Origin: Gammaproteobacteria bacterium
GTDB lineage: Bacteria; Pseudomonadota; Gammaproteobacteria; Eutrophobiales; Eutrophobiaceae
NCBI GenBank assembly: GCA_030835405.1
Contig: JAURPG010000010.1
Coordinates: 1-35,959 of the forward strand
DNA: 35,959 nucleotides
Direction of reading: 5' to 3'
How positions within the stretch are numbered: the stretch's first letter is position 1; each line of letters begins with the position of its first letter. The notes under the pieces were generated by a model. The model was not told the origin of the DNA. It made no database searches and saw only the letters and a list, made by a program, of their open reading frames with translations. Shown here piece after piece: positions 10,391 through 34,573 of the stretch. Made by a program: the position numbers and the translations under genes.

Positions 10391-10704
10391 AAAAGATATA
10401 TACCTCTCCCGAGCAATACCAGCTTGGTCAAATTATTTCCATGCTTGAGGAGGATGGTATTGCACATGTCATTCGTAATGAATTTTTGTCTGGCGCACTG
10501 GGGGAACTACCACCCCATGAATGCTGGCCACAAATCTGGATCGTCCATGAAGAAGATTATGAAAAGGCCAGGGCCATCGTTGATCAGGCGTCAGCTGCCA
10601 TTACCGATTTAGGTCAGTGGCGATGCGATTGTGGCGAAGAGAATGAAGGGACGTTTGGATCGTGCTGGAAGTGCGGGCGAGAAAGAAAAACCGGACAGGA
10701 TTGA
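10387..10704 (+). CDS. DUF2007 domain protein with C-terminal zinc ribbon
   Basis: The 105-residue protein starts at a GTG overlapping the upstream TGA. Residues 1-68 match the DUF2007 (putative signal-transducing) fold: MKKIYTSPEQYQLGQIISMLEEDGI, then an ELPPHECWPQIWIVHEEDYEKARAIV segment. Residues 77-98 form a RanBP2-like zinc ribbon, W-x-C-x-C-x10-C-x2-C, probably binding one zinc. The function of DUF2007 is not established. The last codons and the TGA stop (GGACAGGATTGA) belong to the intergenic ACAGGAT repeat that starts at 10694, so the C terminus GQD is supplied by the repeat. Confidence 0.85.
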   Translation: MKKIYTSPEQYQLGQIISMLEEDGIAHVIRNEFLSGALGELPPHECWPQIWIVHEEDYEKARAIVDQASAAITDLGQWRCDCGEENEGTFGSCWKCGRERKTGQD

Positions 10705-10936
10705 CAGGATTTTTTGGGATAGACAGGATAAGTATATAGCTAGTTAGCGTTTCACAAAAAAAAGCTATTAAGTTAATGAATAACTAATTGCTGGTACTAA
10801 CACAATAAAGATTTGACGGGATTTACAAGATTAACAAGATTTTTAAAGATAGACTGAAATTGAACATTAAAATCTCGTCATTCCTGTCTTTATTTTTTTA
10901 ATCCTGTTAATCCTGAAAAATCCTGTCAATCCTGTC
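10694..10936. repeat. Inverted-repeat element of the ACAGGAT family, copy 1
   Basis: Positions 10694-10714 and 10916-10936 are perfect 21-base inverted arms, each with two GACAGGAT-type units followed by a T run (read outward to inward). Inside each arm are further degenerate units: GATAGACAGGAT at 10718-10729 and the reverse-oriented AATCCTGTTAATCCTG at 10900-10915. A direct-orientation block, TTTACAAGATTAACAAGAT, sits near 10822-10840. The left arm overlaps the end of the DUF2007 gene and the right arm ends 29 bp before the convergent peroxiredoxin stop. The AT-rich interior has no open frame. Function unknown; a transcript could fold into a long stem and serve as a two-way terminator. Confidence 0.85.
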
Positions 10937-18745: not shown

Positions 18746-19963
18746 ATGAGTACAAACACATTTAAAAAAATCGTTCTGGCCTATTCTGGTGGACTGGATA
18801 CATCCGTCATTCTGAAATGGCTTGAGGAACAATACCAGTGTGAAGTGGTGACCTTTACTGCTGACATTGGGCAGGGTGAAGAGCTGGAACCGGCAAGGAC
18901 CAAGGCCCAGGCCATGGGGGTCAAGGAAATCTATATTGAAGATTTACGTGAAGAGTTTGTTAGAGACTATGTCTTTCCCATGTTCAGGAGTAATGCCATC
19001 TATGAAGGTGAATACCTGCTGGGCACATCCATTGCGAGGCCTTTAATTGCAAAACGTCTGGTTGAGATCGCTAATGAAACTGGTGCAGATGCCATATCAC
19101 ACGGCGCCACCGGCAAGGGAAATGACCAGGTCAGGTTTGAACTGGGTGCCTATGCCCTCAATCCTGACATAAAAATAGTTGCCCCCTGGCGGGAATGGGA
19201 CCTGAACTCCAGGGAGAAATTGCTGGATTATGCCGAGGCAAACGGTATCTCTGTGGAAGGTAAACGCAAGGGTGGATCACCTTATTCCATGGATGCGAAC
19301 CTGCTACACATCTCCTACGAAGGTGGCGAACTGGAAGATCCATGGTGTGGGCCGGATGATGCCATGTGGCGATGGACGGTCTCTCCTCAAGCAGCTCCGG
19401 ATGATCCTGAAACCATTGAGATTGAATTTAAAAATGGCGACCCCGTTGCCGTCAACGGTGAACGCCTGACACCTGCCGCGCTACTGCTCAAACTGAATGA
19501 ATTGGGTGGCAGGCATGGAATCGGTCGTGCCGACATCGTGGAGAACCGGTATGTGGGAATGAAATCCAGGGGGTGTTATGAGACACCTGGCGGCACCATC
19601 CTGTTAAAGGCCCATCGGGCCATAGAGTCAATCACCCTGGATCGCGAATCTGCCCATCTGAAAGATGAACTTATGCCCAAGTATGCCAGCCAGATATATA
19701 ACGGCTATTGGTGGAGCCCGGAAAGACTGGCGCTTCAGACCTTGATTGATCAGACCCAGGCACCCGTGAATGGCAGTATCAGATTAAATCTGTATAAAGG
19801 TAATGTTATTGTCTCCGGCAGAAAATCTGAATCCAACAGCTTGTTCGATGCCTCTATTGCCACTTTTGAAGATGATGCCGGTGCGTATGATCAGAAAGAT
19901 GCAGAGGGATTTATCAAGTTGAATGCATTACGTTTGAGAATTTTAAAAAAACGTGAGGGGTGA
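18746..19963 (+). CDS. argG: Argininosuccinate synthase
   Basis: ArgG joins citrulline and aspartate using ATP to form argininosuccinate, the penultimate step of arginine synthesis. At 405 residues it is the short bacterial type, not the 447-residue E. coli type. The ATP-binding P-loop is AYSGGLDTS at residues 12-20. Further conserved blocks are [16 protein letters not shown] (about 113-128), APWREWDL, and [27 protein letters not shown] precedes the ATG, a modest ribosome binding site. The final codons (R-E-G-stop, CGTGAGGGGTGA) are part of the inverted repeat at 19953-20019. Confidence 0.97.
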
Positions 19964-20019
19964 GGAGTTACGTGTTAAGGAATTGATTATAAAATGACGC
20001 CTCACTCCTCACCGCTCAC
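19953..20019. terminator. Candidate two-way terminator hairpin overlapping the end of argG
   Basis: GTGAGGGGTGAGGAGT at 19953-19968 pairs with ACTCCTCACCGCTCAC at 20004-20019 (15 of 16 bases), with a 35-base loop. It lies between convergent argG and the glutamate-synthase-domain gene. The left arm includes the argG stop codon and the right arm ends 2 bp before the other gene's stop. A short T-rich run follows on the plus strand. The position favours transcription termination in both directions; this was not modelled for stability. Confidence 0.6.
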
Positions 20020-20021
20020 CT

Positions 20022-21524
20022 TTAATTCTTTACCACTTCCGGAAACAACTCATCCAATGGAATTGAGTTACCTTTATCCGTAACAATCCGGGCATGTGAC
20101 CTCCGTAACTGTCTCGGTTCCAGCATCCCACAGGAATGGGAAATGATGCCCACTTCCTTTTCCAGGTTTCTTGCATAATGCATTACCCGGACAGACTTGC
20201 TCTCGATATCCAGACCACGTTGCAGGTCCGGGTCATGAGTGGTAATGCCCGTTGGACAGGTGTTCTTGTTACATTGCAATGCTTGGATACAGCCCAGGGA
20301 AAACATGAATCCCCTGGCTGAGGTGACAAAATCTGCACCAATACACAACGCCCAGGCAACGTTAGTGGGTGTAATAAGCTTACCTGAGGCAATCACTTTA
20401 ATTCTTTCCCGAAGTCCATATTCAACAAGTTTATCTACAATTAACGGTAGACTCTCCTGTATGGGCAAACCGACATCGTCCATCAATGGCATAGGGGCTG
20501 CACCGGTACCACCATCAGCACTATCCACGGTAATAAAATCAGGAGCCGATTCCACGCCTCTTTCAAGAATCTCTTTGAATAGTTCATCGATCCAGTTATG
20601 TGATCCAATTACCGATTTAAATCCTACCGGCTTACCTGTCAGATCCCTTATCCGATTTATCATATCCAGCAAGTCAGCATTTGAATCTATGTCCCGATGG
20701 CGATTCGGACTAATGGAATCCTGGCCCACAGGTATGCCTCGTATCGCGGCAATTTCTTCTGTGACCTTGGCACCGGGAAGGATCCCACCCTTACCTGGTT
20801 TTGCCCCCTGGCTTAATTTAATTTCAAACATTTTAACTTCTGGATGTGTTGAAACCTGCTGTAATTTTTCATCACTAAGTTCACCCTTCTCATCCCTCAC
20901 CCCGTATTTGGCGGTACCTATCTGAAATACCAGGTCCGCGCCACCTTCCAGGTGATATGGGGACAAGCCGCCTTCTCCAGTGTTCAACCAACATCCAACC
21001 ATTCGAGCACCTTTGGATAAGGCTATGACAGCAGGTTTGGAGATAGCACCGAAACTCATACCGGAAATATTTATAATGGCATCCGTCTCATAGGGATGTT
21101 CGCAATGGGGACCCACGATAACGGGCACCGGTTCAACGACATCTTCATCCAGGGTAGGATAAGGTGTATTAACAAATAGTATGGTCCCCCTGGGCCTTAA
21201 ATCCCGGGTGGAACCAAAGGCCACGGTATTGTCCAGGTTCTTGGCAGCACGATAACACCATGCCCGTTGAGAACGATTAAATGGAAGTTCCTCCCTATCC
21301 ATGGCAAAAAAATACTGACGAAAAAATTCACCCAGGCGCTCAAACAGGTATCTAAATCTGCCAATGACCGGATAATTTCGCCGAATAGCGTGAGTTTTCT
21401 GTGAGATATCAAGAAAGAACATCACCGCGACGGTAACGGCAATAATTCCAAGGGTAGCAATAAATATCACCGCCATCCATTCAAGTGCATAAAATAAAAA
21501 ATTTTGTAAACGGTCAGTATCCAC
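20022..21524 (-). CDS. Membrane-anchored FMN-binding glutamate synthase domain protein
   Basis: The 500-residue protein contains the FMN/iron-sulfur synthase domain of glutamate synthase large subunit, without the N-terminal glutaminase and C-terminal beta-helix domains. Landmarks are INISGMSFGAISKPAV (151-166), NTGEGGLSPYH (181-191), KPGKGGILPG (242-251), DSADGGTGAAP (334-344), and the [3Fe-4S] cysteines C412, C418 and C423 in the C-x5-C-x4-C pattern. Residues 13-38 are a transmembrane helix, so the enzyme is membrane-tethered. Relatives are annotated only as FMN-binding glutamate synthase family proteins; the real substrate is not known. A second protein with this domain begins at 35214. 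Confidence 0.92.
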   Translation of the reverse strand: MDTDRLQNFLFYALEWMAVIFIATLGIIAVTVAVMFFLDISQKTHAIRRNYPVIGRFRYLFERLGEFFRQYFFAMDREELPFNRSQRAWCYRAAKNLDNTVAFGSTRDLRPRGTILFVNTPYPTLDEDVVEPVPVIVGPHCEHPYETDAIINISGMSFGAISKPAVIALSKGARMVGCWLNTGEGGLSPYHLEGGADLVFQIGTAKYGVRDEKGELSDEKLQQVSTHPEVKMFEIKLSQGAKPGKGGILPGAKVTEEIAAIRGIPVGQDSISPNRHRDIDSNADLLDMINRIRDLTGKPVGFKSVIGSHNWIDELFKEILERGVESAPDFITVDSADGGTGAAPMPLMDDVGLPIQESLPLIVDKLVEYGLRERIKVIASGKLITPTNVAWALCIGADFVTSARGFMFSLGCIQALQCNKNTCPTGITTHDPDLQRGLDIESKSVRVMHYARNLEKEVGIISHSCGMLEPRQLRRSHARIVTDKGNSIPLDELFPEVVKN

Positions 21525-23650: not shown

Positions 23651-23717
23651 ATTTGACAGGATTTACAAGATTAACAAGATTTGTTTTTTGCGTTTTGATG
23701 GTCATGAAAATCCTGTC
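23651..23717. repeat. ACAGGAT-family repeat between prfB and lysS, copy 2
   Basis: The block at 23651-23682 (starting ATTTGACAGGATTTACAAG) is identical to 10811-10842 at 31 of 32 positions. An inverted AAAATCCTGTC follows at 23707-23717, pairing with GACAGGAT at 23655-23662, so this is a short version of the element. It lies inside the prfB-lysS spacer. Confidence 0.75.
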
Positions 23718-27700: not shown

Positions 27701-28040
27701 GACTCAAATTTACATGAGAACAGCATAATCGGCCAGTAATATGATTGAATTATTAAAGAAAAAGAAATAGACAGGATTAACAGGATAATATTTAATTTGA
27801 CTTGATGATTTTTAAATATTTATTAATGATTAGAGCATGTTGTTAAGTAAAAAATAATTGGCAGAATTTACAAGATTTTATTAGTGACATATATCAATCA
27901 TGTAAATTTTAAAATTTCTATCCTGATGAATTATTGCTTAATAAAATCAGATACGTTTCGTACAGCTACAATCTGTTTTAAAACACCAAGACATATTAAT
28001 TTTTTCATCCTGTTAATCCTGTCTATTTTTTATTTTTTTC
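27701..28040. other. Gene-free AT-rich spacer between thrC and the rpfE-like gene
   Basis: This 340-bp stretch contains the long inverted-repeat element at 27765-28028 and little else. Neither strand holds a convincing open frame with a ribosome binding site. No tRNA cloverleaf was seen. The promoter for the rpfE-like/recJ/prfB/lysS genes should be in its left end (27701-27764), where I cannot name good hexamers. Confidence 0.6.
27765..28028. repeat. Inverted-repeat element of the ACAGGAT family, copy 3
   Basis: Positions 27765-27786 and 28007-28028 are perfect 22-base inverted arms. The left arm contains AATAGACAGGATTAACAGG. The 220-bp interior is AT-rich, with one degenerate GGCAGAATTTACAAGAT at 27861-27877. 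The structure matches copy 1 in arm sequence and spacing (element lengths 264 and 243 bp), but the interiors do not look alike. It ends 13 bp before the thrC stop. Confidence 0.88.
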
Positions 28041-29180: not shown

Positions 29181-29365
29181 TAATAGACAGGATTAACAAG
29201 ATCTATTCAGGGTTAACAGGATATTAAGAAAACTTTAATATGGCCATTTATATCAGTCAAATAAAATACGATTTATTTCCATTGAGCTTGTGCGTTTGGT
29301 AAACAAAAAATTCAATTATTTATTTTATCCTGTTCATCTTTTAACACCCTGTAAATCCTGTCCAA
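29181..29365. repeat. Inverted-repeat element of the ACAGGAT family, copy 4 (degenerate)
   Basis: The left side 29181-29225 holds TAATAGACAGGATTAACAAG and GGGTTAACAGGATAT. The right side 29324-29365 holds inverted units (TTATCCTGTTCATC and CCCTGTAAATCCTGTCC). Arms pair imperfectly. Total length is about 185 bp, filling most of the thrC-hom spacer. The left arm lies just before the thrC start, so it would form part of the thrC 5' leader. Confidence 0.75.
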
Positions 29366-30680: not shown

Positions 30681-30723
30681 AATTTTCAATTTTATTTAGT
30701 TCTTGAAAAAAGCTATTTCCATC

Positions 30724-30763
30724 ATTCCCGCGCAAGCGGGCATCCCCTTCCCATAGGGAAGGT
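30724..30763 (+). repeat. REP-like hairpin, copy 2, with a second small hairpin
   Basis: CATTCCCGC, loop GCAA, then GCGGG-CAT (30724-30743) resembles the REP-like family at 34547, though the outer pairs are decayed. A second hairpin, CCTTCCC-ATA-GGGAAGG, follows at 30746-30762, then a T-rich stretch near 30774-30780. It lies 43 bp before the hom start (hom is on the minus strand), between alaC and hom. The remaining 204-bp spacer (30690-30893) has no gene. Confidence 0.65.
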
Positions 30764-34546: not shown

Positions 34547-34573
34547 GTCATTCCCGCGAAAGCGGGAATCTAG
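34547..34573 (+). repeat. REP-like hairpin, copy 3 (plus orientation)
   Basis: GTC, stem ATTCCCGC (34550-34557), loop GAAA, stem complement GCGGGAAT (34562-34569), then CTAG. It lies 47 bp after the tldD stop. A smaller hairpin, GCCC-GAA-GGGC, follows at 34586-34596. Compared with copy 1, the stem differs on both sides so that pairing is kept. Confidence 0.85.

Follow-up and report, generated by a model that had tools for sequence, protein, structure and literature searches.

The inverted pair at positions 27765-28028 of the window, by which we mean the whole 35,959-nucleotide stretch analysed, probably belongs, as a non-autonomous copy without a gene, to a class of small mobile elements that end in inverted iterons and whose full-length members carry a GxxExxY gene. 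In the proposed mechanism, each end of an element is built from tandem 9-10-bp boxes, here of the ACAGGAT type, with the two ends inverted relative to each other, and a full-length element would hold a single gene between its ends, namely GxxExxY with its PD-(D/E)XK nuclease signature. The GxxExxY protein most likely binds to the boxes of both ends and assists in cutting or moving the unit, and it may act as the recombinase itself or together with one. It would also act in trans, so that the ends persist in copies from which the gene was lost, and the interior of these copies decays or takes in other repeats. Insertion would be tolerated in intergenic gaps, often right at a stop codon. We infer box recognition, movement by GxxExxY and action in trans from the arrangement of arms and genes described below.

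The left arm (27765-27786, plus strand, AAATAGACAGGATTAACAGGAT) and the right arm (28007-28028, minus strand) are exact reverse complements of 22 bp each with an outer span of 264 bp. Direct reverse-complement comparison thus confirmed the perfect inverted ends that a sequence-only reading of this DNA had claimed. The arm is composed of AAATA-GACAGGATT-AACAGGAT, i.e. two boxes 9 bp apart that are flanked by AAATA, and the right arm is its perfect inverted copy. The interior (27787-28006) is AT-rich and non-coding, and no ORF of 80 aa was found in it. The best frame of a possible GxxExxY remnant scored 7.2 bits and was matched by 8 of 1000 shuffles; it was treated as chance because 40 elements were examined and because the stretch overlaps an inner degenerate arm block. 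This block (27853-27876, plus strand, scored with 3 mismatches) resembles one within copy 1 of the arm family (10808-10831), and the earlier statement that the interiors of these two copies show no obvious likeness was therefore not quite right.

Many further copies exist in the window and the genome. The 16-mer ACAGGATTAACAGGAT at up to 3 mismatches was found 14 times in the window, with 0.38 matches expected and 0 of 100 shuffles reaching 14, and the 17-mer GACAGGATTWACAGGAT at up to 2 mismatches gave 97 genome matches compared with 1 for the reversed-pattern control. Four such places make up the window set. Copy 1 (10694-10936) lies between convergent genes and its left arm contains the upstream gene's stop codon, a short and partly degenerate pair (about 23655-23717) sits in the lysS/prfB gap, and the pair at 29186-29362 fills the thrC/hom gap with 11 bp left to one gene and 4 bp to the other; 27765-28028 is the fourth. 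For the 2.8-Mb genome, matches were grouped into 49 clusters and nine weak single ones (six with 3 mismatches, three with 2) were excluded. The remaining loci, about 40, comprise 30 +/- arm pairs, 10 with one orientation only and 0 in the -/+ order. Arms are hence not mostly unpaired, an outcome that would have spoken against maintained ends, and the paired loci (30 of 40) have a uniform order. The spans of multi-match loci with both orientations range from 45 to 330 bp, which makes the similar spacing previously pointed out for copies 1 and 2 (243 and 264 bp) a coincidence.

Fuller ends contain up to four boxes, with ACAGGAT usually occurring two to four times per end. Box spacing is 9 bp in 86 of 124 cases and mainly 10-11 or 19-20 bp in the remainder. 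Box positions are conserved independently in each arm. The two arms of one element match at 488 of 600 positions, compared with 486 ± 5.3 for shuffled pairs, and are thus no more alike than arms taken from different elements. Within-element gene conversion from arm to arm, one of the processes suggested before, is therefore not supported, and hairpin selection between arms was rejected on the same grounds, given also that no covariation was seen. The underlying idea that the ends rather than the content are kept is supported.

Using simple gene calling, 18 of 40 loci were assigned to convergent, 18 to tandem and 3 to divergent gaps, with 1 inside a predicted ORF. Arms often extend to the neighbouring gene, and the loci lie mainly at the 3' ends of genes. 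Judging from the recurring arm-gene distances of -4 and -14, the neighbouring gene stops at the TAG of ATAGACAGG or at the TAA of GATTAACAGG in several loci. Loci are also clustered, with six on one 31-kb contig (0.44 expected) and four on the window contig (0.51 expected). Separately, we observed that elements are concentrated in partly syntenic regions, namely contig C95 of this genome (locus L050) and 1.52-1.61 Mb of contig C1 in the congener G002. Local hopping and an imported segment are candidate causes of this concentration.

The region of the window is syntenic in four congeners (G001-G004), with gene names assigned by order and Pfam. The pair at 27765-28028 lies between thrC and the preceding gene, which we take to be apgM and whose protein has no Pfam match. 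This gap measures 340 bp in this genome (G000) and 32 bp in both G001 and G004; it measures 259 bp with AAGACGTAAAG-type arms in G002 and 159 bp with GTGAGG-type arms in G003. In case of the thrC-hom gap, which is 198 bp long here, the genes overlap in G001 and a different sequence is present in G002-G004. Among seven pair-bearing gaps with an ortholog, a complete pair was found in no relative and single-sided remnants were found in G002 at three. Conversely, two gaps hold a pair in G002 that is absent here, one of them retaining a single left box in this genome. Since the same gap can be empty or occupied by another repeat family in related species, the pairs are inserted units, and so ACAGGAT units come and go. 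We observed neither a target-site duplication nor a circle or movement, and the orthologous gaps are too diverged to fix the exact ends. Element interiors often contain nested repeats from other families. Repeats of the TCATTCCCGCG...GCGGGAATC type, located at 30722-30744 and 34548-34570 of the window, are also nested within ACAGGAT pairs (interiors of L040 and L050) and occur in gaps of the congeners as well. A second arm family of like layout (GTGAGGGGTGAGGAGT / ACTCCTCACCGCTCACC), of the 7-bp type and adjoining gene ends, is located at 19949-20023. In G003, an S23 gene (L211) is flanked by GTGAGG-type arms.

An all-against-all comparison of ORFs from arm-bearing loci yielded a single family recurring between arms, GxxExxY (TIGR04256 / PF13366 PDDEXK_3), a small PD-(D/E)XK-like nuclease. 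Examples of GxxExxY genes flanked by ACAGGAT arms come from Verrucomicrobium (L081), Muproteobacteria (L096) and Edwardsbacteria (L142), and at a further locus (L091) both arms around the gene have the same orientation. Across four ACAGGAT-armed proteins, D67 and E77-x-K79 are invariant, which we take to be the expected nuclease signature. We know of no stand-alone transposase among PD-(D/E)XK proteins of about 130 aa. Structure prediction for GxxExxY was poor (mean pLDDT 51) and a PDB sequence search gave no match. GxxExxY genes of relatives show a like layout with other arm types (ACACGAAG, ACACAGAG, ACGCAAAG, CGCAGATT).

Neither a GxxExxY nor an S23 gene was found in G000 or G002, the two pair-richest of the related genomes, and GxxExxY above cut-off was likewise absent in 5 of 41 arm-bearing genomes among the matches listed, Thiobaca included. 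Like the proposed class, the pair at 27765-28028 ends on both sides in inverted arms made of direct 9-10-bp boxes, and its ACAGGAT arm type surrounds GxxExxY genes in other genomes. With no 80-aa ORF in its interior and GxxExxY found neither there nor in the rest of the genome, it can only be a gene-less member. An S23/IVS element would be recognized by an S23 gene or 7-bp arms; the pair has no such gene and its boxes are spaced at 9 bp. Because GxxExxY is absent from both G000 and G002, we favour the reading that the pairs in this genome are relics of an earlier invasion, which they probably are.

In one genus of this phylum, the presence and absence of GxxExxY could be followed at a single site, where 21 of 23 genomes were comparable, 15 with and 6 without the gene. 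The anchor-to-anchor gap is 473-632 bp with a GxxExxY match in 14 genomes and 15-45 bp without one in six others. At L351, the last of the 21, whose downstream anchor was not found, the same stretch holds a GxxExxY gene together with a short arm pair lacking a gene. Arm types at this site vary by species. At L342, the left flank and the apparent first bases of an arm are retained, as if the unit had been lost. In close species (L248, L251 and L236), one and the same site holds GxxExxY elements whose arms differ in type, which could reflect an exchange of cassettes or fast evolution of the arms. On a Terriglobia chromosome (G379; nine loci read, L292-L300), dispersed copies keep just the last 43 GxxExxY residues between arms of another type, and gene-less copies can therefore be deletion derivatives, in this case with that other arm type. 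These repeats are similar to each other, several hundred bases long and have CCACAAAA / TTTTGTGG arms.

Inverted flanks were scored around GxxExxY and S23/IVP genes using profile-based gene ends. A score of at least 13 was reached at 35 of 41 GxxExxY and 25 of 26 S23/IVP genes, compared with 3 of 46 other genes at the same loci, and the numbers in a second set were 23 of 30 for GxxExxY and 24 of 29 for S23. Mismatched flank pairs scored at least 13 in 101 of 328 cases for GxxExxY loci and 26 of 208 for S23, since arm types recur between loci. A flank test based on crude gene calling, which missed or misplaced several target genes, was weaker (11 of 32 and 12 of 23, with 2 of 15 for control genes). 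The best arm period was 9 or 10 in 46 of 64 GxxExxY arms and 7 or 14 in 43 of 44 S23 arms; corresponding numbers in the second set were 31 of 44 and 41 of 46. Arm period separates the GxxExxY from the S23 class. At one locus (L203, genome G044), TCAGTTATCAGTTGTCAG units flank an S23 gene, and this heptamer type is that of the TAACTGA repeats of Beggiatoaceae.

We further compared arm type with protein lineage. Considering the best 30 GxxExxY genes of arm-bearing genomes, ACAGGAT arms were present at 10 (6 on both sides, inverted) and other arm types at 20. None of 29 S23 genes from arm-bearing genomes and 1 of 37 GxxExxY genes from genomes not selected for the arm had ACAGGAT arms, and 2 of 27 S23 loci of relatives showed a nearby match within 3 mismatches, which we attribute to chance. 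When 64 GxxExxY proteins were placed in a tree, from which one of two identical proteins was excluded, the 13 ACAGGAT-armed ones, which represent six phyla by the names in their database records, were split from the rest by one branch with support 92/72. This split recurred in 91% of bootstrap trees and in 0 of 500 shuffles, and a quick tree agrees with it. The arm type thus travels with the protein lineage. Physical linkage alone would also produce this match, and it therefore speaks for a common unit and not for binding. Genome-level co-occurrence was dropped as specific evidence. GxxExxY is present in 36 of 41 arm-bearing genomes among the matches listed (about one per organism) compared with 56 of 299 genomes in the phylum sample; S23, however, is almost as frequent in those genomes (31 of 41 among the matches listed).

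The exact arm 20-mer occurs in at least 110 stretches outside this genome. Carriers among the matches listed, assigned by the names given in database records, include Proteobacteria, Chloroflexota, Verrucomicrobiota, Spirochaetota, Bacillota, Nitrospirota, Bacteroidota, Planctomycetota and the archaeon Methanoperedens. Counting only foreign arm clusters with a match of at most 1 mismatch, again among the matches listed, 97 of 140 are +/-, 0 are -/+ and 43 are one-sided, with a common length near 90 bp. In the window's own phylum, the exact arm was found in only 2 of 299 sampled genomes. The motif with up to 1 mismatch is present in 11 of 58 relatives, with many copies in two only (G000 and G002). 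This patchy distribution, with the arm present in many phyla yet in so few genomes of its own, speaks for horizontal spread. In the plasmid collection, one record contains the arm at four places (Candidatus Thiodictyon syntrophicum). A viral vehicle was considered and rejected, as the viral collection contained the 20-mer in a single stretch and yielded no GxxExxY relative.

The same distribution bears on an alternative in which a sequence-specific DNA-binding protein, either a regulator or a nucleoid protein, uses the arms as operator-like sites, with selection for binding keeping the pairs and GxxExxY being a passenger. Independent conservation of box positions in each arm would fit such sites, as would the 9-10-bp box spacing, which places boxes on roughly the same helix face. 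However, presence or absence and replacement by other repeat families at orthologous gaps in related species, the location mostly at gene 3' ends with 3 of 40 loci between divergent genes, and the occurrence of the exact arm in only 2 of the 299 genomes sampled from the phylum argue against it, and we consider this explanation unlikely.

Rather improbable, too, is an RNA device, i.e. a long hairpin at the ends of genes that serves for termination or RNase III processing, comparable to 23S rRNA intervening sequences. The stretch 27755-28040 folds far below shuffled sequences (z -5.7), loci lie near stop codons, and RNase III cuts IVS elements with terminal inverted repeats according to the available passages of PMC4990558. 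Against this, any perfect inverted pair folds well, and the strong fold is what the inverted arms alone produce. The arms of one element do not covary, and in the window and 11 loci, Rfam at gathering score returned a tRNA as the only match, so that the pair corresponds to no Rfam family.

Homing, or homologous exchange of gap DNA between strains, with a nuclease cutting element-free gaps and no transposition to new places, would account for different families in one gap of related species and would give the nuclease signature of GxxExxY a role. However, the occupation of some 40 separate gaps in a single genome, and the many phyla involved, require movement to new places, which makes this explanation quite doubtful. 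It is highly improbable that the pair is a REPIN-like unit moved by a RAYT, for although both are extragenic with inverted conserved ends and a variable middle (PMC3116915, available passages), a search for Y1_Tnp gave 0 matches in G000 and a single sub-threshold one in G002, and the arms are direct boxes, not palindromes, and show no compensatory changes.

A small mobile element of the GxxExxY class therefore remains our best reading, and it has partial precedents. MITEs consist of terminal inverted repeats around a non-coding interior. The pair at 27765-28028 resembles them in having terminal inverted repeats and no coding capacity; the parent enzyme, however, would be a PD-(D/E)XK-like protein and no known transposase. 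Similar to REPIN/RAYT systems (Bertels and Rainey 2011, PMC3116915), there are many short extragenic units, which in the available passages of that paper have two conserved inverted ends and a variable middle and are thought to be moved in trans, with compensation reported between the ends. ACAGGAT ends differ in being tandem 9-10-bp boxes, non-palindromic and near-identical across phyla, without arm-arm compensation. As the profile search for Y1_Tnp also provided no RAYT in this genome, the RAYT-like gene proposed by the sequence-only reading found no counterpart. Its more general suggestion that a protein, perhaps in trans, acts on the ends agrees with our best reading, with GxxExxY as the candidate and none of those it had named.

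Intervening sequences of 23S rRNA with an S23 (IVP) gene are, in the available passages of PMC4990558, likewise small, patchy, thought to be selfish and built from terminal inverted repeats around one small gene. Those elements sit in rRNA genes, whereas ACAGGAT units occupy gaps between protein genes, have GxxExxY-bearing relatives and contain 9-10-bp boxes; the S23 genes of relatives have 7-bp boxes. The TAACTGA repeats of Beggiatoaceae and cyanobacterial heptamers (MacGregor 2015, PMC4679880) resemble our units as intergenic tandem short repeats with a patchy spread suggesting horizontal transfer. In the available passages of that paper, the TAACTGA units are 7 bp long, direct and mostly near start codons with one inverted case, no S23 link is made, and the mechanism of horizontal spread is described as not evident. 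We found no description of elements of the present kind in open-licence PubMed Central papers, which is no proof of absence, and papers there that match GxxExxY are, in their available passages, unrelated to such elements. Mobile DNA of the iteron-ended GxxExxY kind is widespread and apparently undescribed.

We regard it as evenly balanced whether a superfamily exists across Bacteria and Archaea in which the protein fixes the ends (GxxExxY with 9-10-bp and the four-helix S23/IVP with 7-bp inverted arms) and whose gene-less remains make up much unexplained intergenic short tandem repeat. The repeats ACAGGATTA, CACAGAGG, CGCAAAGA, GTGAGGA, TAACTGA and similar ones would, with the same even chance, be such remains. 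This reading suggests a PD-(D/E)XK protein as trans mover of non-coding DNA and offers a mechanism for repeats such as TAACTGA. GxxExxY and S23/IVP outside rRNA are two abundant gene families of unclear role, and together with several patchy intergenic short-repeat families they would gain one common explanation that can be tested at the bench.
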